Shown: one piece after another, positions 11,236 to 39,976 of the stretch
Layout: each line of letters begins with the position of its first letter
How positions within the stretch are numbered: the stretch's first letter is position 1
Source: Pseudomonadales bacterium
GTDB taxonomy: Bacteria; Pseudomonadota; Gammaproteobacteria; Pseudomonadales; Azotimanducaceae
Length of the DNA stretch: 64,000 bases
NCBI GenBank assembly: GCA_022822135.1
Contig: JAJECH010000052.1
Coordinates: 124,001-188,000, forward strand
Reading direction: 5' to 3'
Translations under genes and position numbers: made by a program
The notes under the pieces: model-generated
Seen by the model: only the letters and a program-made list of their open reading frames with translations
Database searches by the model: none
What the model was told of the DNA's origin: nothing

Positions 11236-11398
11236 TCGATCTTCCTTTGAACGTACCCACGTTATCTAAGACGTGTCAATTGTGCAGAAAGCGATCAGCT
11301 TCATGTAAAAGCAACTTGAAGTTCCTATATCGAGAAACCCGGTTTCGTTACGAAGGATGCTTTTCGCTTAGGAAGTTCGGCTTTCGACCATCAACGCA

Positions 11399-11692
11399 TC
11401 AATCGAAGCGAACCCTACGCGCGTAAACGTTGCCGGTTTCGCCGTAATGCGCAATGAAATAAACACCACCTTCGGGTCCTTCCTGAGTGTGGTACAGAAG
11501 ACCACCTTCCGAACAACCGTTTGCACGGTCATCACACTCGAATACCCACCGCGAAATAGGTTCGTCAGAGTCTGAATCGGAGTCGTCATCTGAATCGTCA
11601 TGCGCTTGCACGTTAAAGATAAAGAACCCCAGAATCAGAGCCGCGATAAATAAAAGAAGAATCTGTGGCAGCCATGCACTCTTCAACACCAT
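11399..11692 (-). CDS. Small membrane-anchored acidic protein, function unknown
   Basis: A 97-residue protein with one N-terminal hydrophobic helix (about residues 8-27), which may be an uncleaved anchor or a signal peptide ending near VQA. It is followed by a striking Asp/Ser run (DDSDDDSDSDSDE), then a small domain with two cysteines (FECDDRANGCSEG) and many Gly and Tyr. The acidic run could bind calcium or act as a spacer in the periplasm. It stands alone between operons. No family recognised. Confidence 0.55.
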   Translation of the reverse strand: MVLKSAWLPQILLLFIAALILGFFIFNVQAHDDSDDDSDSDSDEPISRWVFECDDRANGCSEGGLLYHTQEGPEGGVYFIAHYGETGNVYARRVRFD

Positions 11693-23395: not shown

Positions 23396-25582
23396 TCAGC
23401 TCGCGCGGATTGGTCCGGTGGCAGATTCAGCTACGACATACCTGTATAGCGTTAACGCCAGTTGGTGGTCTTCTTCGTCTAGCCTCTCCAGTTCTGCCGG
23501 TGAAACCAACAGTGTGCGACAAGGACCGTCAGCCGAGACTGATACAGTCGTCTCCGTCTCTTCAATTGCGCTGGCAGGTTCAATCACTGACCCTGCACTA
23601 CACTGATAAAGAACTGAACCATCGTCAGCTAATACGGAAGCTTTTCCTGACATCAATAACTGCATCCCCTTATGCGGCTCTCCGGGCGCAGTAATAACTG
23701 TTTCGTCGTCATATTCAATGCTCTCGAACCGCCCGCTCAATTTATCAGTCAGATCTTCGAATTGAGCCTGTCGATCTAAGAACTGAGTTAGTTCCGGGTT
23801 AGTACTCAGACGCACTAAGTCGCGTAAATCAGGATCCGCTGCTACGTCAGCTTCATAGTTCTCGAGCAGAACACCCTCGGCTTCCGCTAACGCGAGTTCC
23901 TCAGAATCGACCCAAGAGACGTCATCTGACAGAGACGCCGGAACGTCTCGTTTGATCTCCTGCGCGAGTTTATCGGTCGTCGAGCTAAGAATCGTTTTTA
24001 CACTCTGCGTACTAGCACGCTGGATGAACACACGCAAACCATCAAGCGCAGATAGATCAAAACCAGTTACCTCTTTAAAGTCAATCACAACGCAGGATAA
24101 GTTCAACTCACCAGAGAGCGATTCCTTAAGCTGGTTCACGAGCGAGTGTGCGCTACCGAAAAACACGTACCCCTGTAGTTGATAGATTTGAGCACGCGAA
24201 CCGTAGACTTTTATGATCGACTGTTCGGGTATCGATCTAACTGTTCTGCTCGTACGATCTCGAATCGTGTACTGTGATTTGATCAACGGAACGTGACTTA
24301 GCCGAACAACGAAAAACACCAAGCTGAGCACTAACCCTAAGGCTATCGCTTCAAGAAAACCGACAATCACAATCGTGAAGCAAATCAACACGAGCATGCT
24401 GTATTCAGTCGCTTGCAGACGTTTTCGACTCTTGATCAGCCAATCTGAAATTAGCGGTACCGATATCGCGATTAAAAAGCCGCTGGTTGCAGGTAAAGGC
24501 AGAAGTTGCAATACCTCCGATCCCAAGAAAACGAACGCGATAAACGTAATCGCTATGACGATGCTCGTGATTGGCGTATTCGCATGTAATGCAATATGAG
24601 GCAGCGTTGAGGACGCTACGGTCGCACCGGGGATACCCCCACCGACGCCAGATAGTAGATTAGCAACACCGTGAAGCTTGAATTCCCTATTCCAGTCGAA
24701 TTCCAAATTCGCGCCTAGCTCTAATTGGGCGAAACTCACGACCGTTAGGATCAACAACACTAAAAAAAGGACGGTCGCGCTTACGACCTGGGTGAAGACG
24801 ACTCCCCATTGAATCGCGTCAAGGTCGGCTAACCCAAACGCCGGCCAGAGCGACACTGACCATTCAGCATCCAAGAACATTCCTGCAGAACGTGCATCGT
24901 CGACCGAAATACCGAGTAATAGCAATCCAACATGAAACAACACACAGAAAGTGATGAACAAGAAAGGTACTACCCAAAAAGCACGCCAGATTCTCGTCGC
25001 AACGACCAAGGACACACCAAGAAATACGCTAAGGATCGCCTTCCAAAACACCATCGGTTCGAGTAATGAATCCCAAGTGCTAGGTCGCCAATCCAGACCC
25101 GCCAAACGCAGACCGAAGAGAAGGATGAGAATGCCTGACCCTGCTAATGCACCTGCCGATACGGTAAACGGGACGAATCGAAAAAAATCCGCGACCTTAA
25201 AGGATCCCAGAATTAGAAAAAGTAGCCCGGTCAGAAACGCCGTCCCGATGATCGTCGTTACATACGTCATATAGAGTTCTTCGCCTTGCAAATCGAGTGA
25301 CTGCGCAATCGCGATCATCACTAAGGCGACAGGTATCGGTACCGTTGCGACAGGTGCAGGGAACTTACCAAATATCGCAACAAAAAGCGTGAGGATCGCG
25401 GTTCCGACGAAGAAAACACCCGCTCCTTTCAATGCGAACGGTTCGAGTGCGTCTGTGAACACAATGCTCACTAGAGCGAATATTGAAATTGCCAGCGCGA
25501 ATCCTCGGACAAGACCGACGGAAATTCCCGACGAGAAGTCAAGTTCCTTGCCGAGAAGCTGCTTCTTCTCTTTAGTGCTCAA
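23396..25582 (-). CDS. SulP-family anion transporter with STAS and cNMP-binding-like domains
   Basis: A 728-residue inner-membrane protein. Residues about 30-425 hold 11-13 hydrophobic helices of the SLC26/SulP fold, including LLSGVGGGIPGATVASSTLP. Residues 430-570 form a STAS domain (YQLQGYVFFGSAHSLVNQL and VVIDFKEVTGFDLSAL). The last 120 residues (TVITAPGEPHKGMQLLMSGKASV) look like a cyclic-nucleotide-type beta-barrel. Substrates of the family are sulfate, bicarbonate or dicarboxylates. It starts with TTG overlapping the stop of a frameshifted small frame upstream and is divergent from the PKS. A role in supplying or balancing anions for lipid synthesis is a guess. Confidence 0.88.
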   Translation of the reverse strand: MSTKEKKQLLGKELDFSSGISVGLVRGFALAISIFALVSIVFTDALEPFALKGAGVFFVGTAILTLFVAIFGKFPAPVATVPIPVALVMIAIAQSLDLQGEELYMTYVTTIIGTAFLTGLLFLILGSFKVADFFRFVPFTVSAGALAGSGILILLFGLRLAGLDWRPSTWDSLLEPMVFWKAILSVFLGVSLVVATRIWRAFWVVPFLFITFCVLFHVGLLLLGISVDDARSAGMFLDAEWSVSLWPAFGLADLDAIQWGVVFTQVVSATVLFLVLLILTVVSFAQLELGANLEFDWNREFKLHGVANLLSGVGGGIPGATVASSTLPHIALHANTPITSIVIAITFIAFVFLGSEVLQLLPLPATSGFLIAISVPLISDWLIKSRKRLQATEYSMLVLICFTIVIVGFLEAIALGLVLSLVFFVVRLSHVPLIKSQYTIRDRTSRTVRSIPEQSIIKVYGSRAQIYQLQGYVFFGSAHSLVNQLKESLSGELNLSCVVIDFKEVTGFDLSALDGLRVFIQRASTQSVKTILSSTTDKLAQEIKRDVPASLSDDVSWVDSEELALAEAEGVLLENYEADVAADPDLRDLVRLSTNPELTQFLDRQAQFEDLTDKLSGRFESIEYDDETVITAPGEPHKGMQLLMSGKASVLADDGSVLYQCSAGSVIEPASAIEETETTVSVSADGPCRTLLVSPAELERLDEEDHQLALTLYRYVVAESATGPIRAS

Positions 25583-25913: not shown

Positions 25914-28900
25914 ATGTCGGAAAGTGGCTCTAACCAGATAGACAAAACGAAATCTGATGACAACGCCGAAGAGAACACGCACGAGTATTCGCAAGAGAAA
26001 ATCGCGATCGTGGGGATGGCATGTCGCTTCCCAGGCGCACCGGACTTAACGACCTTCTGGCGTCAATTACTTGACGGTGCGAATTGCGCAATCGAGTGTC
26101 CCCCAGGGTCAAACGAAGGACGAGTTGGCGAGCTGTATAGCGACACATCATCGATTCCCAGTGCATGTCGCCATGGTGCCTTCTTAACCGACATCGACCA
26201 ATTCGACGCAGAGTTCTTCAGGATTTCGCCGTCCGAAGCCGAGTTCCTCGACCCACAACAGCGCATGATGTTGGAAACCAGCTGGCAAGCGCTCGAAAAC
26301 GCAAACATTGATCCAGACTCGTTACGTGGCTCCAGCGCGTCGGTGTTTGCCGGGATGAGTAACAACGACTACCGATACTTGATTCTGAACGGCGCCGAAA
26401 CATCACAGCCGGCTGCAAGTCTGTACACGATCACGGGAACCTCTTTAAATACGGCGATCGGTCGCGTGTCCTACGCGCTCGGGTTTGAAGGACCTGCCAT
26501 GACCGTAGACACCGCGTGTTCTTCGTCCCTGGTCGCGATGCATCAAGCAGCCGTCGCCTTGCGTTCCGGCGAGACAGATGTTGCTCTTGCGGGTGGCGTT
26601 CAACTCATTTTGTCAGGCAAATTGACGGAACTTCGAGCCAACGCCGGCATGCTTTCACCAGATGGAACGTGTAAGACCTTCGACGAAAACGCTAACGGAT
26701 ACGTTCGGGGCGAAGGCTGCGGCATCGTTGTGCTCAAGCGCTTGAGTGACGCGGAACGAGATGGCGACCACATTTGGGCAATTGTGTCAGCAACTGCGAT
26801 TAATCAAGACGGCACTAGCGACGGCTTAACCGTGCCACGCGGCACTTCACAGAAAGCCGTTATCGAAGCGGCCGCAAAACAGGCACAGATATCACCAACC
26901 AGCGTCGACTATCTTGAGGCTCATGGGACCGGCACGCCCGTCGGCGACCCTATTGAAATCAATGCCGCTGCAGAGGTTTATGGAAAAGATCGCGGTTCGA
27001 ACACGCCGCTGTTGATCGGTTCGGTAAAAACGAATATTGGTCATCTTGAACCCGCTGCAGGTGTTGCGGGTGTCATCAAAGCCGCATTAGCGATGAAGTT
27101 TGGTGTTATTCCGCAACACCTGAACTTCGAGACCCCAAGTTCCGCGATTGATTGGGATCGCCTGCCGGTCGAAGTCGTGACGGAAGCTCGGCCATGGCCT
27201 GAAAAAGAACCTTCTGATCGACATGCAGGAATCAATTCCTTTGGATTCTCGGGGACCAACGCTCACGTCATTCTTGGCGGTCACACCGACCCAGAACCAA
27301 TTGGCGATGTTGCGAACGCCATGGACGGCATCGTCGGCGATGCTAAACGTGTCGAACCCGGTATAGATACCCGCGCAGAACTGAGTGCGGACGAAATCAC
27401 TAAGAACTTGCGCAAAAAACGCATCCTTCCAGTATCAGGGAAATCGCTAGAGGCATTGAAAGCCGTTGCTAGCGAATACCTACGTTGGACAGCTACTACC
27501 TCAGACCTGCTACAAGATTCAACCGAAGCTCTTAACTCAAAGCTACTTGATTTTGCTTGGACTACATCCATCGGAAGGAGTCATTTCAACCACCGTAAAG
27601 CACTTGTGTTTGACGGGCACGATTCTCTCGTCGAAAAGCTGACGGACGTTACGACTCTGGACTCAGTCGATTCGTGCGGGACGCCTCAGCACGTTGCGTT
27701 CGCATATACCGGACAAGGTAGTCAATGGGTTGGCATGGGCAAAACGCTTTACGACACCGAGCCTGTATTCAAGAGCGTAATCGATCGATGCGAAGAGGTA
27801 ATTCAGTCCGAGCGCAATAGTTCGCTCATAGCACGAATGTTCGGATCCGGCGGTGCCGCTGACGACCTTGAAGATCCGCAATGGGTACAACCGTGCATTT
27901 ATGCAGTCGAGTGTGCGTTAACGGATCTTTGGGCGAGCCTTGGCATCAAGCCTTCCGTGGTACTTGGGCATAGTCTCGGAGAAATCGCCGCGGCTCGAAC
28001 AGCTGGCGTTTTCTCGCTCGAAGATGGGTGTCGATTTGCCTCCGGTCGCGGGAGACTCATGAGTCAACTACCCGGTCCGGGACTGATGGCAGCGGTGTTT
28101 CTCACAGAAGTAGAAATCGATCTAGCCGTCGCTGAATACAACAACGAACTGAATGGTACGGGAGTAAGTGTCGCGGCACAAAACGGTGCGCACCAAGTCG
28201 TTAGTGGTTATGTTGATGAACTAGAACCTTTGTTAGAGCGTTTCGAAGGCGAGGACATCCGCGTTCGACGATTAAAGAAGAGCCCGGCTTATCACAGTGC
28301 ATTAGTGGAACCGATCTTGGACGAGCTGGCAGAGGTTGTCGCTGGTCTAAATGTCGCGACGCCAAGAATCCCCTTGATAAGCAACCTAAGCGGCGAATTG
28401 GTTGCGCCCGATCGCCTACTCGACAGCGAGTATTGGCAGCGACACGCCCGCGGCACGGTCGCGTATCGAAAAGGTATCGAGTCCGTTGCTAAACAAGGGA
28501 TTGATGCTGTACTAGAAATCGGACCAAATCCAATCCTAGGTCCGATGACAGAAATGGCGTGGCCGGAAAATAACGAAGACTTCCCGGTCGTGCTCGCTAG
28601 CCTTCACGCACCGCGCGAAGATCGACCTGAAATCCCAACCGACGGCGGGTTTCACGAATCTGTTTGCGAAGCCTACGAACAGGGATTGGATATTCGTTTT
28701 CAAGGTCTTTATGTCGGTGAAAAGCGACGCAAGATCAATATCCCAGGCTACGCATTTCAACGTCGGCGGCACTGGGTCCAAGCTCGTTCACGACGCGTCA
28801 CAGACACCGATCACGCGTTACTAGGAACGAGACACGAGACCCCGTATGGCGAGCTCAATTTCGAGACACAGCTGGCGTCCTCTGATCCAATTTGGTTACA

Positions 28901-31900
28901 AGAGCATCTCGTCTTCGGTCAAGTCTTAGTACCGGGTGCATTCTTTGGAGCAATGGGTTTCGAGTGTCTAGGCTCACCACTCGTAGGTACGTGCGTAGAA
29001 GATCTTCAACTTCACAATCCCATGATGCTTAGGAACTCTTCGGAAGAAGAAGAAGCGTCGCGCCGACTTCAGCTCGCCCTTCGGTCAGCAGATACGGAAG
29101 GTGCACGCAAATTCGAGATTTTCAGCAAAGGAACTCAAGAGGAGAGTTGGTTACTTCACGCGACCGGAGTTATTTCGAACCGATCCAATGAAACCGAACC
29201 AAGCGAATCTGTTGTCCTTGAGGAACTAACCGAGTCACTCGAGAGCGAGGACCTCACCGAGTACTACAAACAAAAGTCAGAAGCAAATATTCAACTCGGC
29301 AAACCCTTCCAGAATCTTCGCAGCCTATGGTCTGCATCCGGCAACGCCGCTGCAGAAATAAGGTTGAGAGACGAAGACGTCATGCCGAACGTGGCAATTC
29401 AGCCTTTGTTACTCGACGCTTGCTTTCAAGTCTTAGCTGCGGCGCGTGACTCCTTGGACCTAGGAGGAGGCGCGACGTACATCCCGTTCGGATGGGACCG
29501 TCTAACGCTTCACGCGACGATGACGTCCAGTGTCATCTGCCGCGCACAGATGCATGGCATATCCGAGGAAACCGAGGACACAGGTACTACGGACAACACG
29601 AATCTCGAAGCGCTGAGCGGTGATCTTTGGATTTACGACGAGCGCGGACGCCTTTGTGGCGAATTGCTCGGATTGACGGTGAAGAAAGCAACTCGATCCT
29701 CTCTTCTATCGGCTATCGAAGATCCCACCGATCTGATATACGAAGTGGAATGGCAAAACCGCGATCATCTCACAGCAACTCGCGAGAAATACCCGCTCGC
29801 CGAGCTCAAAGACATTGAAGCTAGCGTTGAGCCATTCTTCAACTACCTGCTCGCACAAGGCGTCACGCCCGAAGAACGATACGACCTACTTCAAGATCTT
29901 GAGCGACTTGCGCATTCATGGGTTCTAGCCGCGTTCGACAACGCCGGATTCGAAAGGACCAAAGGTGCGCAAGTTCTTGTCGAAGAATTAATAGCGCAAT
30001 TTGGTGTTCTACCCATCCACAAGAAGCTCGTCGTGAGAATGCTTCGAATGCTGGTTGACGCCGGTGTTCTAGAGAAGTCATCAAGCGACGAATACACGGT
30101 CGTTCTCGATCAAAGCGGAGCTTTGCCGGATGGCATCGAACCACCCGAAGCTCTATTCGAGAAGTTAAAAGAAAAACACCCTCATGGACTTTACGAACTT
30201 ACACTCCTAAGTCGATTTGGTGTTCGATTCCTCGAACTGTTGACGGGCGGTGCAGATCCGCTCGCGCTCCTATTTGATGACGATTCGTCTGGAGCAGCAG
30301 ACTTTTACCGTACTGCGCCTGTTTCTGCGGCAGGTAATCGACTGCTCGGAGACGCGATTTCAAGCATCGTAAACGATCTGCCTGACGATAGGACGCTCCG
30401 CGTCATCGAAGTAGGTGCGGGGACTGGTGCAACGACAGAGATCGTTTTTGCTGAACTCGAAGCGAAAAAACTTGAATACACCTATACGGATATTTCCGCT
30501 GGTTTTTTCGCGGAGGCCGAACGAAATTTCGCAGGGAACGGGATCAACATCGAATATCGCGCATTAGATATCGAGAACGATCCTCAGACCCAAGGATATG
30601 AAGACGGTTCTTATGACATTGTCGTGGCTGCAAACGTTTTGCATGCGACACAAGACCTTCTCGAAACACTATCTAACTGTCGGAAACTGCTAGCTCCGGG
30701 CGGTGTCCTTATCGCACTGGAATCGCTACGCGGTCGTGCTTGGCAGGATCTGACGTTCGGTTTTCTTGATGGATGGTGGCGATACAACGACGCGTATCGA
30801 AAAGACCATGCGTTAGCAAGCCCGGACATTTGGCGAAGTGCGCTATCAGACGCCGGATATGTCGACGCAGTGGTATTTGGGAGTGAAACCGTCTCCGACA
30901 CTTCTGGTCCACTCGGTTCCGGAACCGTCGTCGCGCAAAACCCACTCGATAGGCAACTACGACCTGGTACTTGGGTAATCGAACGAGATCAAGGGGATAT
31001 CGGAACGCGATTAACGAGTTGGCTTGAGTCACGGGATCAAAACGTCATCGTAACAAGCCTGAATGACGAACACGATTCCGATTCTCTGAAAATCGTCAGT
31101 CACGTCGACCTGGCAGAGCTGCTCGAGCAACTCCCAAGTGATCAACCGTTGCGAGGTGTCGTTCATCTTAAAGGCCTCGACGGACACGGTGCGAATTCCA
31201 CCGCAGAAGATCTCGCATCGGACATCAAAGCTGTAACGACAAGTGCATTAAGCCTGACGCAAGTGCTGATCGAATCGGGCATACGACCAACATCCGGGAT
31301 CTCCTACGTCACATGTGGTTCGCAGGTGATCGAATGTGAACAAATCGGACAGATTGCAAGCGCGGCACTTTGGGGATTCGGCAAAGTTGCTGAACTGGAG
31401 TCTTCGCTGCTCAACCCACGAATGATTGATCTAGATCCGCAAGAAGACACATTCGACTTGCTGATTCAAGACCTGATGACACCCGACGACGATAACCATG
31501 TCGCATACCGCAGAGGTACGAGGTACAGCGCACGCTTGGTGCAGAGTAAGGAGAATGAATCTCGGCTCACTTTGCCGAACGAAAACGAGTGGATCATGCG
31601 GTCCGACAAAGATGGTTCGTTGTCGAACGTGCGTACGGGACCGATTGAAGCTGCCGCTCTGGAAACACGGCAAGTGCGAGTTCGAGTCGAAGCCGCTGGA
31701 TTGAACTTCTCAGATGTCCTTGTCGCATTGGGAGCGCAGGTTCCGAACGCTTCGCTCGGACTTGAGTTTGCAGGATATATCACCGCGACCGCATCCGATG
31801 TCGATGAGTTTTCAATCGGCGATCGAGTCGTTGGTATGGGATTTGGTACGTTTGGAACCGAGATAACGACACACGCCAGTCTTGTTGCCGCGGCACCAGA

Positions 31901-34900
31901 AAACCTGCTGTTCGGCGAGCTGGCGACCATCCCAATTGCGTTTAGTACGGTAGCGATTGGATTTGAACTCGCAAATCTCAAACCAGGTGATCGAGTGCTG
32001 GTTCATTCCGCCGCTGGCGGAGTCGGTCTTGCGGCCATCCAATTGGCGCACGCAGCCGGTGCGCAAGTGATCGCGACTGCGAGTACATCGAAACAAGACT
32101 TTCTCAAGTCGTGTGGTATTGAGCACGTCTTCGACAGCCGGACATTAGCGTTCGGTGAGCAAGTCCTTGAAGTAACCGATGGCGAAGGCGTAGATGTCGT
32201 TCTAAATAGCCTCACTAGCGAAGGATTCATCGACACAAGCCTGAGTTGCCTCAATCAGCACGGTCGATTTATCGAAATCGGACGACTGAATATCTTCTCG
32301 GATGAAGAAATGAAGCGTAAGCGACCGGACGTCGATTACCACGTGATTTCACTTGATGAACTCAAACGAGAAGAGCCTGATCAAGTCGGACACACGTTCA
32401 GCGATCTTATGACTCGGTTCGCTGATGGTGAACTGCAGCCGCTACGACATACGAAGTGGCCGATCGCGGAGATTGGCGATGCGCTGCAATACATGGGTTC
32501 TGCGCGTCACGTCGGCAAACTCGTACTCACCGTACCTGCCTTCGCACACGGCATGCTCAAAGACGATCGTACGTACCTAATCACCGGTGGACTCGGCGGC
32601 ATCGGTTGTGAAGTTGCGACCTGGCTCGTCGAACGTGGTGCAAAACACATCGTTCTCAATGGACGGCGAGCGCCTGAAGAACCTGCGCTCATGACGATTG
32701 AGGAATTGAGTGAACGCGGCTGCAAGATTGAGGTCAAGATTGCGGACATGACGCAGACTTCGGAAATTGACACGATGCTTCGCGAAATCGAGCTCGAAAT
32801 GCCGCCTCTCGGCGGGATTGTCCACAGCGTCGGCGTGCTATCGGACGGTGCAATCCCAAATCAAACGTGGGAGCGATTTGAGCAAGTTCTCGCCCCTAAG
32901 GTTGTCGGTGCATGGCGCTTACATGAAGCGACAAAACGTCTCGACCTCGACTTTTTTGTTTTGTTTTCGAGTGCGACTGGCGTGCTCGGTAATGCAGGAC
33001 AAGCTAATCACGCGGCCGCAAATGCATTCCTGGATCAATTAGCCGCCCATCGTCGCGCATTAGGGCTACCCGGACAATCGATTGCATGGGGAGCATGGTC
33101 CGATATTGGCGAAGCTGCAGAACAACGGGACAGGATTGCGTCGCAATTGGAGACTACCGGTACGGGTTGGATTTCACCTGAGTTGGGCATTCGAACGCTC
33201 GACTATCTTGCGTGCCACGACATCACTAATCCGGCGGCTATGTCCATCGATTGGCGCGTGCTTGAACAGAGTCTGAACTCACGACCGAGTTTCTTGGGTG
33301 AATTACTATCAAGTGATGAAGACGATGATGCGGCAGGACTAGACGCACTGACGATTGACGTTGTCGAGCTGCGGTCAGCTGACTCCGAGTCACGCGTCGA
33401 AGTCTTGATGTCATACGTCCAGAATCAGCTGCAATCCATCCTACGACTACCGTCATTACCGACTCGAAACGTCGGATTTTTCGACCTTGGTATGGACTCG
33501 TTGATGGCTGTTGAACTTCGAAATCGGCTCATTCGAGCATTCGAAGGTGAACTTACGATTTCAAGAACCATTGTGTTCGATCATCCTGACGTCGAAGCCT
33601 TAGCGACCTTCCTTTCAAACGAACTCGAAGATGGCGCAGGCGCCGATCCACGTGAAAACGCGACACAGAACCTGCCATTACTTACGAGCAACGCCAAGGT
33701 CGCCGTCATTGGTCTCGCCTGTCGATTTCCAGGATCCTCAGATTACGTAGCGTTTTGGCACAATCTCATTCGCGAGACTCCGGCTATTCGAGAAAACCGA
33801 CGCGACGACAAAGCGTGGGAAGGCGTCGTGGGTGACGCTAATGCGACCGATGCGTATTTGCGTTGCGGCGGATTTGTTGACGATATCGACGAGTTCGACG
33901 CCAATTTCTTCGGGATCCGGCCGATCGAAGCACGATCAATGGACCCGCGACAGCGTATGCTCCTCGAAACCAGCTGGGAAGCGATCGAGAACGCAGGGAT
34001 TGATCCTAATTCACTCCGTGGCGCTCGAGTGGGTCTTTACATCGGTTTAGGAGGTAGTGAATATAGAGACCTTTTAAGTGCGGGCGGGGTCGAGGACAGC
34101 TACGTTGGTACATCCTCTGGAATGACGGCGGGTCGCATCTCGTATGTGTTCGGTCTAACAGGTCCAGCCATTTCGTTCGATTTGGCGTGTGCGTCGTCAC
34201 TGGTTTCCATTCACGAAGGTATCAAAGCACTGCAGCACGGTGAAATTGACCTAGCACTTGTGGGTGGTGCGAATGCGATCCTTTCTCCAGCCATCATGCG
34301 ATTTCACCGTGAGTTGGGACTTCTGGCGTCCAACGGCAACTGTCTTCCATTCGATGAAAACGCAGAGGGATACGTTCGAGGCGAAGGATGTGGCATACTC
34401 GTACTCAAGCGTTTAGATGAGGCTGAACGCGACGGCGACCCGGTCTGGTCGACACTACTCGGTTCCGCAGTAAACCAGAACGGTGCAAGTGCAGGCTTAA
34501 CCGTGCCAAACGGGACGGCTCAAGAGCAAGTCATGCAAGACGCGGTCTTGAGAGCAGGAATCAACCCTAATGAAGTTGACTACCTTGAAACTCACACGAC
34601 AGGACTTGCATTAAGTGATCCCATCGAGATAAGAGCAGCGTCGTCCGTCTACACGTCATCTTCCGAACGCGAGCGGTCACTGTTAATCGGTTCGCTTAAG
34701 AGTCGTCTCGGGCACCTTGAGTGGGCCGCAGGTGTTGCGGGTGTCATCAAGCTCATTCTGTCGATGTCACAACGGACCGTTCCTGCCCAGTTGCATTTCT
34801 CTGAACCCAATCAGCAAGTAGATTGGGATACGAACCGAATGGAAGTTAACCGTTCATCCGTTGAATGGCCTGAAACTAATGGACGTTCGCCGATCGGCGC

Positions 34901-36041
34901 GGTGAGCGCATTTGGCATGTCAGGAACGAATTCTCATGTGCTGCTTGAAGGCAACGCTAAGACCGACTGGAACGAGACGTCCTGCCCGAATGTTCCTCTG
35001 ATTCGTGGCACGGCTTTTGAAGTACCGTTGCTGCAACCAACGCTACCGAACGAACTTGATCTCTCATCTATCGCGAACACTGAAGCAACGCGTCAATTCC
35101 GATTTCTGCCACTATCTGGAAAATCCCCAGAAGCCGTTCTCGGTTTAGCTCGGAAATATCTCGCTTGGCTTGAAGACCTACGGCTTGACGAGCTTGATCC
35201 TGAAGCGTTGGATTGCTTCTTAGCAGACTTCGCATGGACAGCGTGTACGGGGCGTAGTCATTTTGATGCTCGCATCGGCGTGGCATTCAACGATGCAACG
35301 ACGCTCGTTGATTCACTTTCAGCGATCAAGGCAACGGATATCACAGAACATGCCGGTGACATTCCGCGGCCGATCGGAGTTACGTACGTCTTTAGTGATG
35401 ACGAAGAAGCTTGGTTGAGATTTGGCCGCGATCTATATGAAAAGGAACCTGTCATTCGAGCGGTCATTGATTTGTTTAACGAGCGCTTACTCCAGACTAA
35501 CCAGGATGACCTTCTCGAAGCACTGTCGTTGGATCAATCAGCATCGGATGAACAAATAGACCCAGCGCGACTTCAAGTCGCCTTGCATGCCATTTACATT
35601 GCGGCATCCGTGTATTGGCGATTATTGGGACTACAACCAATTGCCATGGTTGGTTCTCCCGCACAACGAATCTCTGCGTGTCTCCTTGATGGAACGATTG
35701 ATCTTGAGGAGGGAATTGTGAGAATCTCAGAATTTGCATCCAATGGGTCGGACCCTCAAGCAATGAGCGACATTCAGACAACGAACATACAGTGGTTTGA
35801 CACGACAGATCATCAGGGTCTGAAACAACAAGATTCTGACTTTCACTTACCGATCGGTCCTGTAGCGGATATTGAATCCGCTAATGACTCGATGGGCGTT
35901 GGACTAATCCAAACCGTAGCGAAAACGTACGAAACTGGTTTACCGATCGATCTTCGAGCATTGTTCGTTGGTGAAAAACGATCAAGGATGACGCTACCGA
36001 GCTACTCGTTTGAAAGACGCAGATTCTGGTTCAATGACTGA
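25914..36041 (+). CDS. Highly reducing type I polyketide synthase with vestigial second KS-AT
   Basis: 3375 residues. Domains in order: KS1 (about 29-455; Cys202, His337, His377), AT1 (about 585-880; Ser687 in GHSLGE, selectivity site PAYH, more malonyl-like), DH (about 955-1240; His998 in HLVFGQVLVP, Asp in LLLDACFQ), C-methyltransferase (about 1440-1640; EVGAGTG at 1499), ER (about 1880-2207; HSAAGGVG at 2031), KR (2217-2390; TGGLGGIG, Ser2353, Asn2370, but His2366 in place of the catalytic Tyr), ACP (about 2490-2570; Ser2529 in GMDSL), KS2 (about 2590-3020; Cys2759, His2894, His2934), then an AT remnant to the end. No thioesterase and no ACP after KS2. The first module should build a methyl-branched saturated chain. 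The ATG follows AAAAAGG. Neighbouring PPTase, ACPs and hydrolases complete the locus. It recalls the sup/swf PKSs of sponge symbionts (from memory). Confidence 0.93.
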   Translation: MSESGSNQIDKTKSDDNAEENTHEYSQEKIAIVGMACRFPGAPDLTTFWRQLLDGANCAIECPPGSNEGRVGELYSDTSSIPSACRHGAFLTDIDQFDAEFFRISPSEAEFLDPQQRMMLETSWQALENANIDPDSLRGSSASVFAGMSNNDYRYLILNGAETSQPAASLYTITGTSLNTAIGRVSYALGFEGPAMTVDTACSSSLVAMHQAAVALRSGETDVALAGGVQLILSGKLTELRANAGMLSPDGTCKTFDENANGYVRGEGCGIVVLKRLSDAERDGDHIWAIVSATAINQDGTSDGLTVPRGTSQKAVIEAAAKQAQISPTSVDYLEAHGTGTPVGDPIEINAAAEVYGKDRGSNTPLLIGSVKTNIGHLEPAAGVAGVIKAALAMKFGVIPQHLNFETPSSAIDWDRLPVEVVTEARPWPEKEPSDRHAGINSFGFSGTNAHVILGGHTDPEPIGDVANAMDGIVGDAKRVEPGIDTRAELSADEITKNLRKKRILPVSGKSLEALKAVASEYLRWTATTSDLLQDSTEALNSKLLDFAWTTSIGRSHFNHRKALVFDGHDSLVEKLTDVTTLDSVDSCGTPQHVAFAYTGQGSQWVGMGKTLYDTEPVFKSVIDRCEEVIQSERNSSLIARMFGSGGAADDLEDPQWVQPCIYAVECALTDLWASLGIKPSVVLGHSLGEIAAARTAGVFSLEDGCRFASGRGRLMSQLPGPGLMAAVFLTEVEIDLAVAEYNNELNGTGVSVAAQNGAHQVVSGYVDELEPLLERFEGEDIRVRRLKKSPAYHSALVEPILDELAEVVAGLNVATPRIPLISNLSGELVAPDRLLDSEYWQRHARGTVAYRKGIESVAKQGIDAVLEIGPNPILGPMTEMAWPENNEDFPVVLASLHAPREDRPEIPTDGGFHESVCEAYEQGLDIRFQGLYVGEKRRKINIPGYAFQRRRHWVQARSRRVTDTDHALLGTRHETPYGELNFETQLASSDPIWLQEHLVFGQVLVPGAFFGAMGFECLGSPLVGTCVEDLQLHNPMMLRNSSEEEEASRRLQLALRSADTEGARKFEIFSKGTQEESWLLHATGVISNRSNETEPSESVVLEELTESLESEDLTEYYKQKSEANIQLGKPFQNLRSLWSASGNAAAEIRLRDEDVMPNVAIQPLLLDACFQVLAAARDSLDLGGGATYIPFGWDRLTLHATMTSSVICRAQMHGISEETEDTGTTDNTNLEALSGDLWIYDERGRLCGELLGLTVKKATRSSLLSAIEDPTDLIYEVEWQNRDHLTATREKYPLAELKDIEASVEPFFNYLLAQGVTPEERYDLLQDLERLAHSWVLAAFDNAGFERTKGAQVLVEELIAQFGVLPIHKKLVVRMLRMLVDAGVLEKSSSDEYTVVLDQSGALPDGIEPPEALFEKLKEKHPHGLYELTLLSRFGVRFLELLTGGADPLALLFDDDSSGAADFYRTAPVSAAGNRLLGDAISSIVNDLPDDRTLRVIEVGAGTGATTEIVFAELEAKKLEYTYTDISAGFFAEAERNFAGNGINIEYRALDIENDPQTQGYEDGSYDIVVAANVLHATQDLLETLSNCRKLLAPGGVLIALESLRGRAWQDLTFGFLDGWWRYNDAYRKDHALASPDIWRSALSDAGYVDAVVFGSETVSDTSGPLGSGTVVAQNPLDRQLRPGTWVIERDQGDIGTRLTSWLESRDQNVIVTSLNDEHDSDSLKIVSHVDLAELLEQLPSDQPLRGVVHLKGLDGHGANSTAEDLASDIKAVTTSALSLTQVLIESGIRPTSGISYVTCGSQVIECEQIGQIASAALWGFGKVAELESSLLNPRMIDLDPQEDTFDLLIQDLMTPDDDNHVAYRRGTRYSARLVQSKENESRLTLPNENEWIMRSDKDGSLSNVRTGPIEAAALETRQVRVRVEAAGLNFSDVLVALGAQVPNASLGLEFAGYITATASDVDEFSIGDRVVGMGFGTFGTEITTHASLVAAAPENLLFGELATIPIAFSTVAIGFELANLKPGDRVLVHSAAGGVGLAAIQLAHAAGAQVIATASTSKQDFLKSCGIEHVFDSRTLAFGEQVLEVTDGEGVDVVLNSLTSEGFIDTSLSCLNQHGRFIEIGRLNIFSDEEMKRKRPDVDYHVISLDELKREEPDQVGHTFSDLMTRFADGELQPLRHTKWPIAEIGDALQYMGSARHVGKLVLTVPAFAHGMLKDDRTYLITGGLGGIGCEVATWLVERGAKHIVLNGRRAPEEPALMTIEELSERGCKIEVKIADMTQTSEIDTMLREIELEMPPLGGIVHSVGVLSDGAIPNQTWERFEQVLAPKVVGAWRLHEATKRLDLDFFVLFSSATGVLGNAGQANHAAANAFLDQLAAHRRALGLPGQSIAWGAWSDIGEAAEQRDRIASQLETTGTGWISPELGIRTLDYLACHDITNPAAMSIDWRVLEQSLNSRPSFLGELLSSDEDDDAAGLDALTIDVVELRSADSESRVEVLMSYVQNQLQSILRLPSLPTRNVGFFDLGMDSLMAVELRNRLIRAFEGELTISRTIVFDHPDVEALATFLSNELEDGAGADPRENATQNLPLLTSNAKVAVIGLACRFPGSSDYVAFWHNLIRETPAIRENRRDDKAWEGVVGDANATDAYLRCGGFVDDIDEFDANFFGIRPIEARSMDPRQRMLLETSWEAIENAGIDPNSLRGARVGLYIGLGGSEYRDLLSAGGVEDSYVGTSSGMTAGRISYVFGLTGPAISFDLACASSLVSIHEGIKALQHGEIDLALVGGANAILSPAIMRFHRELGLLASNGNCLPFDENAEGYVRGEGCGILVLKRLDEAERDGDPVWSTLLGSAVNQNGASAGLTVPNGTAQEQVMQDAVLRAGINPNEVDYLETHTTGLALSDPIEIRAASSVYTSSSERERSLLIGSLKSRLGHLEWAAGVAGVIKLILSMSQRTVPAQLHFSEPNQQVDWDTNRMEVNRSSVEWPETNGRSPIGAVSAFGMSGTNSHVLLEGNAKTDWNETSCPNVPLIRGTAFEVPLLQPTLPNELDLSSIANTEATRQFRFLPLSGKSPEAVLGLARKYLAWLEDLRLDELDPEALDCFLADFAWTACTGRSHFDARIGVAFNDATTLVDSLSAIKATDITEHAGDIPRPIGVTYVFSDDEEAWLRFGRDLYEKEPVIRAVIDLFNERLLQTNQDDLLEALSLDQSASDEQIDPARLQVALHAIYIAASVYWRLLGLQPIAMVGSPAQRISACLLDGTIDLEEGIVRISEFASNGSDPQAMSDIQTTNIQWFDTTDHQGLKQQDSDFHLPIGPVADIESANDSMGVGLIQTVAKTYETGLPIDLRALFVGEKRSRMTLPSYSFERRRFWFND

Positions 36042-36062: not shown

Positions 36063-36989
36063 CTACGCAAAACCCGTACTTGACACGAACTCGCGAACGA
36101 ATTTCGCGCACTCTTTCGGTTGTTCGATCTGCATATAGTGTGTCGCGTCCGGGAGGAAGTCGAAATCGACATGAAGCATATGAGATAGATCGACTGTTGG
36201 TAGATACGAAGACGGTAACAAGGGATCTGATCCAATAACGCGGACCGGGCACGGTAGTTTGTCTAAATCCACTTGATCCGCGAACGCGCGGAAGAACCCC
36301 ACGATTTTCGCTTCATAATCAGGTGGACATCGCAATTCGTAACCAGGCTGATCGTCGGATTTCTTGAGAATCGTGTGTGCCATCAACTCCTTCGCCCCTG
36401 TCACTAGGCGTGAATACGCAGGTGAAAAGTCAAGCAATTCAATCAATTGTTCGCGAGACTTAAATCGAAATGTCCGTTTTCGTGTCTGCGTCGCTCTAAG
36501 TTCGACTGCCTCGTCAAACTCAGCGTGACTCTGTCCAGGTCGGTACATTGGTGGGTCAAAAAGAACCAATGCGTTGAACCCGTGCCAACGGCGCTCTAGT
36601 GTTTCCGCTATCAAACCTGAGGAATAAAGCAAGGCGACTAGCGCGGAGACCGAATGCAACACCCCTAAGCTTGGTTTCTTGCCATATTGCTTTTCAACCT
36701 CAAACATAACATGATCAAGGTCAGAGACAAGCGAAATGACATTGTGATCGTCTTTGCTTGTCCGTTCATTCCAACCGTGGTTACGCAGATCAAAGATGAT
36801 CAATTCGAAATCGTTCGCAAGCTCGGACCAAAACGGGTAATAAAGATCAATCGCTAACCCATTGCCGTGTCCCAAAACCAATCGCGGACCAAGTGGATTG
36901 CCGTGTCTTCGGACTGTGATACGAGTTTCCTGGTCAACAACAACTTCGATTGTTGAGAGCGGTTTAGGTAATTGCCAATCGGTCGCCAT
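36063..36989 (-). CDS. Alpha/beta hydrolase, candidate trans-acting thioesterase
   Basis: A 308-residue alpha/beta hydrolase. The oxyanion region is LGHGNG, the nucleophile elbow is LHSVSA (Ser113; the usual last Gly of GxSxG is Ser), the acid is likely in VIGSDPLL, and His lies in DATHYMQ. It is a paralogue of the gene at 38901 (shared YELRC and HYxxxExP features). It ends 21 bases from the PKS stop, tail to tail. The PKS has no thioesterase, so this enzyme may release its product. An in-frame TTG at 37028 overlaps the PPTase stop and is an alternative start. Confidence 0.8.
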   Translation of the reverse strand: MATDWQLPKPLSTIEVVVDQETRITVRRHGNPLGPRLVLGHGNGLAIDLYYPFWSELANDFELIIFDLRNHGWNERTSKDDHNVISLVSDLDHVMFEVEKQYGKKPSLGVLHSVSALVALLYSSGLIAETLERRWHGFNALVLFDPPMYRPGQSHAEFDEAVELRATQTRKRTFRFKSREQLIELLDFSPAYSRLVTGAKELMAHTILKKSDDQPGYELRCPPDYEAKIVGFFRAFADQVDLDKLPCPVRVIGSDPLLPSSYLPTVDLSHMLHVDFDFLPDATHYMQIEQPKECAKFVREFVSSTGFA

Positions 36990-37024
36990 GATGCGGGTTG
37001 TGCCTGAGCGTGTGTAACCTCGCC

Positions 37025-37720
37025 TCAATCGAGCTCATGGGCAAATGCGGCTACAAACCTATTATCGTGCAGACTATGCAGCTCCCAAGTTGCTTCCGAC
37101 AGAGACGTGAATCGGACGACAGCGTGGTCATCCTCACCTGTCATAATCGAGTCGGGGATCGTGAACGCGGTCGTGTCCGCTCGAAAACCCTCGCCTATCG
37201 CCTTGATGAATGCCTCCTTTAACGTCCAGAACTTCACAAACAAATCTGCTCGATCCTGTGGCTTAGTATGCATTAGCAGCTCTCGCTCGTGGTCCGAAAG
37301 CACCTTGTGTAATTCGTCGTTGGTTCCGTAACGCTCGTTTCGAAGCTCAATATCCACACCGATTCTTCCGCGCGGAGCGAATGCAAGTAAACCATGACCT
37401 GCGGTGTGACTCACATTAAAGTTCCAAGGAACTTCGTGTCCTCTGACTAACGCCTTTGGTTTTTCGTTACGCTCCATCGTGAAACTTAGATCGGAATTGA
37501 GAATCCCCATCATTTCGCTCAAGTAGACCCGCAGTGCCGCACGGCATAGTATGAATCGCCCGCGCGCTGGAAACGAATCGAATCGTTTCGCACGCTCCTG
37601 TTCGTTCATATCTAGTAAGTCGTGCGCGTGCGACTCGTTCGCTAGACTCGCAGAAAGGTCAACATAAACAACCGTCACGTCGCCGATCTTCACGTAATCG
37701 CATGCCCAATTTGCTTTCAC
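37025..37720 (-). CDS. Sfp-type 4'-phosphopantetheinyl transferase
   Basis: 231 residues. It has the family motifs NVSHTAGHG (102-110), GVDIE (121-125; Mg-binding Asp and Glu) and FWTLKEAFIKA (164-174). It transfers phosphopantetheine from CoA to a carrier-protein serine. The length and the WxxKEA spacing fit the Sfp/EntD class rather than AcpS. It lies in the PKS locus next to two stand-alone ACPs, so it most likely activates the PKS ACP and these ACPs. The upstream ATG at 37720 has no strong ribosome site. The downstream hydrolase gene overlaps or closely follows. Confidence 0.92.
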   Translation of the reverse strand: MKANWACDYVKIGDVTVVYVDLSASLANESHAHDLLDMNEQERAKRFDSFPARGRFILCRAALRVYLSEMMGILNSDLSFTMERNEKPKALVRGHEVPWNFNVSHTAGHGLLAFAPRGRIGVDIELRNERYGTNDELHKVLSDHERELLMHTKPQDRADLFVKFWTLKEAFIKAIGEGFRADTTAFTIPDSIMTGEDDHAVVRFTSLSEATWELHSLHDNRFVAAFAHELD

Positions 37721-37864: not shown

Positions 37865-38089
37865 ATGTCATCAACCGAAGAGAGAATTACCGCGCTTAGC
37901 AGAAAATTACTCGTCCCAGATCGAGACCCTGACTTCGACAAGGACTTTAGCGAATCCGATATTTCGTCTATCGTTGTTGTGGAATTCGCGAAAGCAGTCG
38001 CTAGCGAATTTGGTCTCGAAATTCCTGCTGAGGAATTTGCTGGATTCAAGAATCTCCGGGAACTCGTCTCCTATATTGATTCCAAGTAG
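37865..38089 (+). CDS. Free-standing acyl carrier protein, copy 1
   Basis: 74 residues with the acyl-carrier pattern: acidic helix I, DPDFDKDFSESD loop, helix II SIVVVEFAKAVASEFGLEIP, and a final helix KNLRELVSYID. The phosphopantetheine serine is Ser35, but the residue before it is Ser34 instead of the near-universal Asp of DSL. It is divergent from the PPTase gene and is followed by a perfect hairpin terminator. It may serve KS2 of the PKS, which lacks a downstream ACP, or carry the starter acid. About 80% identical by eye to copy 2. Confidence 0.87.
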   Translation: MSSTEERITALSRKLLVPDRDPDFDKDFSESDISSIVVVEFAKAVASEFGLEIPAEEFAGFKNLRELVSYIDSK

Positions 38090-38536: not shown

Positions 38537-38767
38537 GTGTCGTCAACTGAACAACGAATCACTGTGCTCAGCAAAAAACTCCTTGCAGAAGATCGAGACC
38601 CTGATTTCGATAAGCAGTTTAGTGAATCTGATCTCCCATCCATCGTGGTAGTGGAATTCGCAAAAGCGGTGGCGAGTGAATTTGGCTTAGAGATTCCCGC
38701 AGAGGATTTCGCAGAATTGAAAAATCTGCGTGAACTGGTTTCCTACATCGACGCTAAGTTAGGCTAG
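38537..38767 (+). CDS. Free-standing acyl carrier protein, copy 2
   Basis: 76 residues, a close paralogue of copy 1 (same MSSTE start and the same DRDPDFDK and IVVVEFAKAVASEFGLEIPA segments). Ser35 is the attachment site and is preceded by Pro34, again not Asp. The start is GTG at 38537 with GAGGA 6 bases ahead. It arose by tandem duplication of the ACP gene. Divergence at helix I and at the residue before Ser35 hints at different partners. It converges with the second hydrolase gene. Confidence 0.87.
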   Translation: MSSTEQRITVLSKKLLAEDRDPDFDKQFSESDLPSIVVVEFAKAVASEFGLEIPAEDFAELKNLRELVSYIDAKLG

Positions 38768-38900: not shown

Positions 38901-39794
38901 TCAAAGCACCTCCCGTTGGACTGTAGATAACTCTTTCGCAACCAATTCAGGTCGTTCCATCGGGATATAGTGGCTTAACTCCTCTAGCTGCACATCGGAC
39001 CCGTTTCGGAAGCTCTGTGCGAGTTTTGGCCAAGTAACTGAATGGATGGTGTCTAAGGGATGCCTGATGCCTCGCGCGCTTTTGCCGCGAAATACCTTTA
39101 CTGGAACATCCACAGACGATAGCAAAGGGTGTACGTCCGTACCCGCACACTCAAGAGACGTCTCGGCTTCAACTAGTGGTGAGCATCGAAGTTCGTATTG
39201 CCCGTGTTCAGTCTGCTCAAGCCCATGTTGACAATGATCCCGAAGTACTTCCTCAGACCAAAGATCGAATGGACTACGGTCTCTTATCGACTCGAACCAT
39301 TGCTTTGGTGAGTCCCAGGTCGTTCTGCGCCTCGCATACGGGTGTTCTTCCGGTGAATCGAACATCTTGAATTGGCCTGCAGACGCATACGCACGAGGTG
39401 CGAATATCGCCGGTTCGAATAAGAGCAACGCTTTAATTCGCTTGTTCACCGTCGCTGCAGCCTGTAGCAGAGGATGAGTACCCAAACAATGTCCAACGCC
39501 AATGATTGAGTTTAAGTTCAAACTGAGAATCAAGGAACATAGATCGCTTCCAAGTTGACCCCAGCTATATGGTCCTGTCTTCTCTGACTGTCCATGTCCT
39601 CGAAAGTCAATCGATACTACAGACTGCGATGAATCAAGTCGTCGCACGACTGCATCCCAAACGCGCGCATGGCAACCTAAACCGTGTACAAATAGGACGG
39701 TCGAAGCGTCTTGGGTATTGCCGACTCGCTCGACGAATGCCATCCGCATGCCGTTGATACTCAGATATTTCTGTTCAAGGTTTAATGGTGCCAC
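38901..39794 (-). CDS. Alpha/beta hydrolase with Cys nucleophile, candidate thioesterase
   Basis: About 297 residues if it starts at the GTG at 39794; a TTG at 39833 gives 310. It has LFVHGLGCHARVWD (oxyanion), IDFRGHGQSE, and the nucleophile elbow GVGHCLGTH, where Cys replaces the usual Ser. His lies in LSHYIPMERP. Cys-type elbows are known in some thioesterases and in dienelactone hydrolases. It shares LLFEP and YELRC blocks with the hydrolase at 36063 and is its paralogue. With that gene it brackets the PPTase and ACPs, so a role in chain release or transfer from the PKS is the leading idea. Confidence 0.8.
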   Translation of the reverse strand: MAPLNLEQKYLSINGMRMAFVERVGNTQDASTVLFVHGLGCHARVWDAVVRRLDSSQSVVSIDFRGHGQSEKTGPYSWGQLGSDLCSLILSLNLNSIIGVGHCLGTHPLLQAAATVNKRIKALLLFEPAIFAPRAYASAGQFKMFDSPEEHPYARRRTTWDSPKQWFESIRDRSPFDLWSEEVLRDHCQHGLEQTEHGQYELRCSPLVEAETSLECAGTDVHPLLSSVDVPVKVFRGKSARGIRHPLDTIHSVTWPKLAQSFRNGSDVQLEELSHYIPMERPELVAKELSTVQREVL

Positions 39795-39976
39795 GATTAT
39801 CAGGTAGGTCTCGTGTAGTTGGGAACAAACCAATTGCGCTTGATTTTAGATGCGTGTGTCAGTAGTAGACATCCTCATTCAAGGCTGAAATTTCGACGAC
39901 GTGGCCGAGTCGCGATGTTGAACTGGCGCCTTGAGTGCTCCATACCTTGCTAGCGCATGTGTTTGAAATTTCGTTC

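Follow-up and report, generated by a model that had tools for sequence, protein, structure and literature searches.

In the window, by which we mean the whole 64,000-nucleotide stretch of DNA analysed here, a type I polyketide synthase (PKS) continues beyond its only acyl carrier protein (ACP) domain into a second ketosynthase (KS2) and the remnant of a second acyltransferase (AT2). Our comparisons suggest that, on balance, this ending is probably a functional terminal half-module without an AT, which would work in trans with a free-standing ACP as the acceptor. The PKS, the domains of its ending, and the neighbouring genes were located as follows.

25914-36041, + strand: type I PKS of 3375 aa, KS1-AT1-DH-MT-ER-KR-ACP-KS2-AT2 remnant (ORF and Pfam)
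33414-33614, + strand: cis ACP domain, residues 2501-2567, with Ser2529 (Pfam and alignment)
33696-34994, + strand: KS2, residues 2595-3027, with Cys2759, His2894, and His2934 (Pfam and alignment)
35103-35318, + strand: KS-AT linker of the terminal half-module, residues 3064-3135 (Pfam and AT1-block HMM)
35382-35726, + strand: AT2 remnant, residues 3157-3271, nucleophile column at Pro3249 (Pfam, alignment, and AT1-block HMM)
35883-36035, + strand: post-AT linker, residues 3324-3374, retained at the PKS C-terminus (alignment and AT1-block HMM)
36063-37028, - strand: alpha/beta hydrolase, conserved partner gene (neighbour scan and HMM)
37025-37720, - strand: 4'-phosphopantetheinyl transferase, PPTase (neighbour scan and HMM)
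37865-38089, + strand: free-standing ACP 1, 74 aa (ORF and HMM)
38537-38767, + strand: free-standing ACP 2, 76 aa (ORF and HMM)

Pfam analysis of the PKS indicated two KS domains, a full AT1, DH, MT, ER, and KR domains, and a single ACP (residues 2501-2567); no ACP was detected after KS2-AT2 in the whole 3375-aa ORF. AT2 matched the Pfam model at positions 1-113 of 319 with 24.1 bits, which was below the cut-off of 32.7 bits. Against the family AT1-block HMM, positions 1-208 and 408-458 of 462 were aligned, and 54 residues stood in place of the 199 unaligned model positions. In the window, the AT2 block (316 aa) is about 130 aa shorter than the AT1 block (446 aa). The first-pass annotation had described a PKS ending in a second KS with a gutted AT and no ACP, on which Pfam and the AT1-block HMM agree. 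Ser2529, Cys2759, His2894, and His2934 were found in the alignment where it had placed them, the column of GHSLGE in AT1 reads GSPAQR in AT2 (Pro3249), and the post-AT linker resumes after the gap, as it had stated. Its figure of about 180 missing AT-core residues was also a fair one. By sequence, the terminal half-module has no functional AT, and the rest of the enzyme carries a full cis AT. The structure model of KS2-AT2 was confident (pLDDT 85, pTM 0.90), and its first match in the PDB was the KS-AT didomain of CurL with a TM score of 0.81 by query length. The model of an AT-free tail (locus L079) was poor (pLDDT 65) and was left out of the argument.

Relatives of the PKS were collected by an alignment-based scan, covering named genomes, with patterns drawn from KS2, and the best 80 of 93 were retained; because the patterns were based on KS2, relatives without KS2 could be missed. 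A single-sequence scan of genome contigs for PKS relatives gave eight matching stretches, none of which was confirmed. All of the best 80 were titled MAG, and many of the isolate prefixes of these records are presumably those of sponge projects. They belonged to many phyla, including Gamma- and Alphaproteobacteria, Nitrospira, Nitrospinota, Bryobacterales, other acidobacterial groups, Latescibacterota, Gemmatimonadota, Rhodothermales, Bacteroidota, Chloroflexi, Actinomycetes, Acidimicrobiia, Spirochaetaceae, and others. Seven of the 80 loci had been matched at KS1 and not at KS2; six of them had a full ORF, and KS2 was present in all six. After exclusion of 13 of the 80 loci with partial ORFs, a set of 70 proteins (3122-3569 aa) was obtained, consisting of the window, G008, G002, and 67 loci. 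This set was unthinned, with nine pairs more than 95% identical, and it kept L107, whose AT2 block is the shortest (22 aa), L075, which lies at a contig end, and L082 and L084, whose C-termini lack the post-AT motif.

The post-AT motif was found at the C-terminus in 67 of the 70 proteins, and, within the sampled family, the ending is conserved, widespread, and not unique to the window. A recent deletion in the window alone, which the first-pass annotation had considered, is excluded by the same ending in the other full-length members, three of which have odd or cut C-termini (L075, L082, and L084). An assembly error was rejected as well, with uninterrupted ORFs carrying the same ending on four records titled 'chromosome' (OX638355.1, OX638356.1, OX638318.1, and OY288106.1, corresponding to L067, L071, L088, and L098, respectively). 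Among 97 related genomes, the KS2 tail was found in 13, the window's own included: eleven had a single long ORF, and in G013 and G023 the ORF was in pieces. At the loci of the latter two genomes (L035 and L033, respectively), the PKS reading frame consists of overlapping pieces, and the ACP frame of G013 also contains stops. The tail was absent in six of 17 other genomes of the same genus (G001, G004, G006, G012, G015, and G017), three of which are less than 90% complete. When 369 genomes were drawn from the class, a full-length match was obtained, among the matches listed, in the window's own genome and G274 only.

The decay of AT2 was evident throughout the set. The catalytic Ser and His of AT1 were kept in 70/70, with an AT1 block of 433-456 aa, whereas the AT2 block ranged from 22 to 393 aa and was shorter than the AT1 block in every case. 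AT1-model positions 241-300, the stretch of the catalytic His, were covered in none of the 70 AT2s, whereas coverage reached 59-69 of the 70 for the KS-AT linker and 62-67 for the post-AT linker; about a dozen members have AT2 reduced to the linkers. The nucleophile column of AT2 contained Gly (45 proteins), a gap (13), Asp (5), Ser (3), Ala (2), Pro (1), or Glu (1). The simplest history would be one old loss of the catalytic-His stretch with decay ever since. As for the three AT2s with Ser, that of L036 reads GSSLNQ, the remaining nucleophile motif being gone, and those of L087 and L098 likewise have no His stretch. Over about 220 aa, the AT2s of L087 and L098 are 76% and 95% identical, respectively, to AT1 of the same protein, so that an ancestral Ser is less likely than a copy-back from AT1. 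In L098, on a record titled chromosome, the DNA of AT1 and of the AT2 remnant is 94% identical over a 300-nt copy (L098:3650-3949 and 11342-11641), and copying from AT1 to AT2 within this PKS gene is likely.

The catalytic residues of KS2 have been retained. In the full-length family alignment, window included, the Cys was kept in 70/70, the first His in 68/70 (Asn in L043 and L106), and the second His in 70/70. The HGTGT loop was intact in 70/70 KS1, whereas its last Thr was altered in 69/70 KS2, to Leu in the window and the four relatives nearest to it and otherwise to Ser. A chain-length factor (KS-CLF) is recognised by the lost active-site Cys and a non-elongating KS (KS0) by the lost catalytic His of HGTGT; KS2 showed neither hallmark, the HGTGT His being present in the window also.

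The dN/dS ratio (omega, Nei-Gojobori estimates) in six close pairs, which share genomes and do not include the window, was 0.037-0.074 for KS2, 0.022-0.036 for KS1, and 0.055-0.139 for AT1. In the same pairs, omega of the AT2 remnant was 0.281-0.435, indicating relaxation, and non-catalytic linkers were relaxed too (up to 0.35 for the KS1-AT1 linker). Three of nine pairs, including both with the window, were saturated in most domains and excluded from these values; in some of the six pairs, dS of KS2 was far under that of KS1, so that recombination may blur the omega values. As judged from these comparisons, KS2 is constrained as a working domain, and it is well supported that it is functional. 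The first-pass annotation had left room for a dead tail, in which KS2-AT2 would be the fossil of a lost second module. AT2 is indeed plainly decaying and no ACP follows it in the protein; yet the omega of KS2 lies within the range of other catalytic domains in the six pairs, its catalytic residues are kept across many phyla, and the ending is retained even in a single-contig genome of 1.59 Mb (L098; G466:C1). The selection and conservation data make a dead tail very unlikely.

The origin of KS2 was examined in a KS tree with 20 KS from related gammaproteobacterial genomes as the outgroup. KS2 was set apart with a support of 0.71, and KS1 and the outgroup were poorly split (0.25); because of these weak splits, only mean identities were used. 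These were 55% for KS1-KS2, 45% for KS1-outgroup, and 44% for KS2-outgroup. In the window alone, the KS1-KS2 identity was 46%, no higher than KS1-outgroup (45%), and hence we only infer a duplication of KS-AT. Probably, a methyl-branching PKS of one module gained a second copy of its KS-AT pair at its end; the catalytic-His stretch of AT2 would have been lost before the sampled lineages split, and AT2 would have decayed since, with KS2 staying under selection. Separately, a comparison of the window's PKS with L044, L046, L047, L053, G002, and G008 showed two PKS types within one genus. KS1 of the window is 65% identical to copies of Latescibacterota, Rhodothermales, and Nitrospira, and on average 57% identical to the second type found in its genus, which suggests PKS exchange between symbionts.

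The genes beside the PKS were examined in 85 neighbour loci, from which eight of the 80 loci were excluded as coming from repeat genomes. HMM matches to the alpha/beta hydrolase were obtained in 71 loci, to the free-standing ACP in 68, and to the PPTase in 43, and 38 loci had the full trio; a nearby ACP was unfound in 17/85 and a PPTase in 42/85, some of these misses being short contigs. The Ser of the HS motif and the C-terminal His of the hydrolase were invariant in 71/71 sequences. The attachment Ser of the free-standing ACP was kept in 73/73, and the Asp that usually precedes it was missing in all 73. No HMM match to hydrolase, ACP, or PPTase was obtained near the PKS in five long loci (L054, L065, L071, L072, and L113). 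Of eight long loci without a nearby ACP, seven come from genomes with an ACP match of 70-107 bits at another site; in the genome of L072, where the PKS ORF is broken, the best ACP match had just 46 bits. In L071 (G467:C1, a record titled chromosome), an 81-bit ACP match lies at 723 kb and the PKS at about 3.66 Mb, indicating that the carrier gene need not be linked.

A discrete AT for the pathway was found neither among the ten neighbour genes scanned nor as a dedicated gene in the whole-genome search, in which the sole AT match above the cut-off outside the PKS was on contig C32, beside a KS and an ACP; we read these three as a housekeeping set. Other genes near the PKS were a second alpha/beta hydrolase (window 38901-39833), which accompanies the PKS in only two other loci, and, directly upstream (window 23396-25582), a SulP-type permease with STAS and cNMP-like domains. 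Another permease family, of the xanthine/uracil type as judged from one scanned member, was observed near the PKS in 29 loci.

A strong match to the free-standing ACP (at least 73 bits) was obtained in 13 of the 97 related genomes, which were exactly the 13 with the KS2 tail, five of which had contributed rows to the ACP profile; the best match elsewhere had 58 bits. Four of the six genomes in the G274 family carried the full tail, and the same four carried the ACP, two of them (L045 and L098) having contributed profile rows; of the other two, G465 had a tail fragment and no strong ACP, and G463 had neither. We also compared distances over 58 loci. The free ACP was correlated with the hydrolase (0.23), KS2 (0.23), AT1 (0.22), and KS1 (0.10), and the partial correlations given AT1, MT, ER, and KR were 0.18 for KS2, 0.18 for the hydrolase, and -0.07 for KS1. 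The KS2 partial value was reached in 0/500 label permutations and that of KS1 in 465/500, permutations that ignore phylogeny. These values are weak, yet they point to better co-divergence of the free ACP with KS2 than with KS1. The distances of KS2 were correlated with those of the cis ACP at 0.75 and with those of KR at 0.74, and linkage alone may explain such similar values. The first-pass suggestion that KS2 acts on the free-standing ACPs has thus gained indirect support from the shared 13 of 97 genomes and the weak co-divergence, and the free-standing ACP is the probable partner of KS2, although its role could instead lie with the hydrolase or in a lipid step further on. The co-divergence gives no direction, and a priming site, at which the free ACP would bring a starter to KS2 and not receive a chain from it, would agree with it equally. 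A KS right after an ACP is, however, in the usual position of the next acceptor KS, and KS2 directly follows the cis ACP, which makes priming improbable.

Taking KS2 as an acceptor of the finished chain, we propose the following route. Cys2759 of KS2 would receive the chain from Ser2529 of the cis ACP. The acceptor would be the free-standing ACP, activated by the adjoining PPTase and presumably loaded by AT1 or a housekeeping malonyltransferase. KS2 would then catalyse one last decarboxylative condensation, which we prefer, or a chain hand-over, and the dedicated alpha/beta hydrolase would release the chain. Decarboxylation requires both KS His, and non-elongating KS domains are often without one of them; because both are kept in KS2, we lean towards condensation. 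If KS2 merely relayed the finished acyl chain, without condensation, from the cis ACP to the free-standing one (or left it to the hydrolase), the product would be a simple methyl-branched fatty acid, consistent with the relaxed HGTGT loop, with a conserved hydrolase that could release an acid, and with the mid-chain-branched fatty acids proposed for Sup enzymes (PMC4245539). Against such a transfer stands the retention of the two His in 68/70 and 70/70 KS2, and we consider it possible but rather doubtful.

The Sup enzymes are also the nearest in architecture. Apart from the extra KS-AT remnant, the domain set KS-AT-DH-MT-ER-KR-ACP agrees with the single-module Sup type, for which a methylating, fully reducing domain set is typical. 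In the published descriptions compared here, the Sup (sponge symbiont ubiquitous) PKS, SupA, has one module, occurs in several phyla of sponge symbionts, and is proposed to form methyl-branched fatty acids (PMC4245539, PMC3908369, and PMC9426513); SUP was reported in Chloroflexota, Spirochaetota, Proteobacteria, and Acidobacteriota (PMC9426513). The present family shares the one-module type I organisation and the multi-phylum spread, and it is probably the Sup PKS. The same descriptions call Sup monomodular and, in the parts compared, mention neither a terminal KS-AT remnant nor a trans ACP, whereas here the remnant is present and a free-standing ACP would act in trans; this may be no real difference. 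No description of a terminal KS in Sup was met in the portions of the Sup/Swf literature covered (PMC3908369, PMC4245539, PMC9864124, and PMC9426513), nor did literature searches for this architecture or for Sup bring up a paper recognisable as reporting one; the primary Sup papers may already depict the KS-AT ending. The first-pass statement that no enzyme with such an ending had been described fails as worded, the ending being common to the whole sampled family; if the family is Sup, known sup/swf PKSs would routinely end so.

In 68 of the 70 proteins, the last eight bases of the published KS primers, forward and reverse, matched KS1 in 68/68, which is weak, indirect support for Sup, and matched KS2 in 22/68 (forward) and 25/68 (reverse). 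The idea of a PCR bias is partly supported by these KS2 counts. The Swf PKS (SwfA), also a one-module PKS of sponge symbionts, is described as KS-AT-DH-ER-KR-ACP without MT, with I or V for the second Q of DPQQR and with HATGT (PMC3908369). The present enzyme differs in having an MT, DPQQR in KS1 of the window, and HGTGT in 70/70 KS1.

In trans-AT PKSs, what is left of the linkers of a lost AT typically follows the KS, and this terminal half-module likewise has an AT-less KS with AT-linker remnants; chains named 'AT-less polyketide synthase' were among the solved relatives, ranked under KS-AT chains. The PKS differs from trans-AT systems in its full cis AT and in that the only other AT above the cut-off in the genome stands beside housekeeping-type fatty-acid genes. 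Terminal KS domains as such are already in print, as two reports show. In TAS1, which forms tenuazonic acid, a KS is likewise the last domain and was shown to catalyse the final, releasing cyclisation (PMC4640141); this enzyme is a hybrid of NRPS and KS, and its triad is Cys-His-Asn, in contrast to Cys-His-His here. Catalytic Cys and His are also kept in the KS domains with which algal type I PKSs end, with the loop HANGT there and HTTGL/HANGL here, but those are large, multimodular, trans-AT eukaryotic enzymes (PMC4661987).

Taken together, these findings raise the tentative possibility that, across sponge microbes, KS2 of a split module in a widespread lipid synthase forms the final C-C bond onto a dedicated small carrier, and that the partner hydrolase offloads a beta-keto lipid, or one derived from it, rather than the plain methyl-branched fatty acid proposed for Sup. 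If the family is Sup, its working parts would go beyond the PKS and its live terminal KS to include a small ACP and a hydrolase, in many cases together with a PPTase; a different product would be predicted, and the PKS expressed without the ACP and the hydrolase should fail or mislead. The family also displays successive evolutionary stages in the loss of an AT from a cis-AT enzyme.
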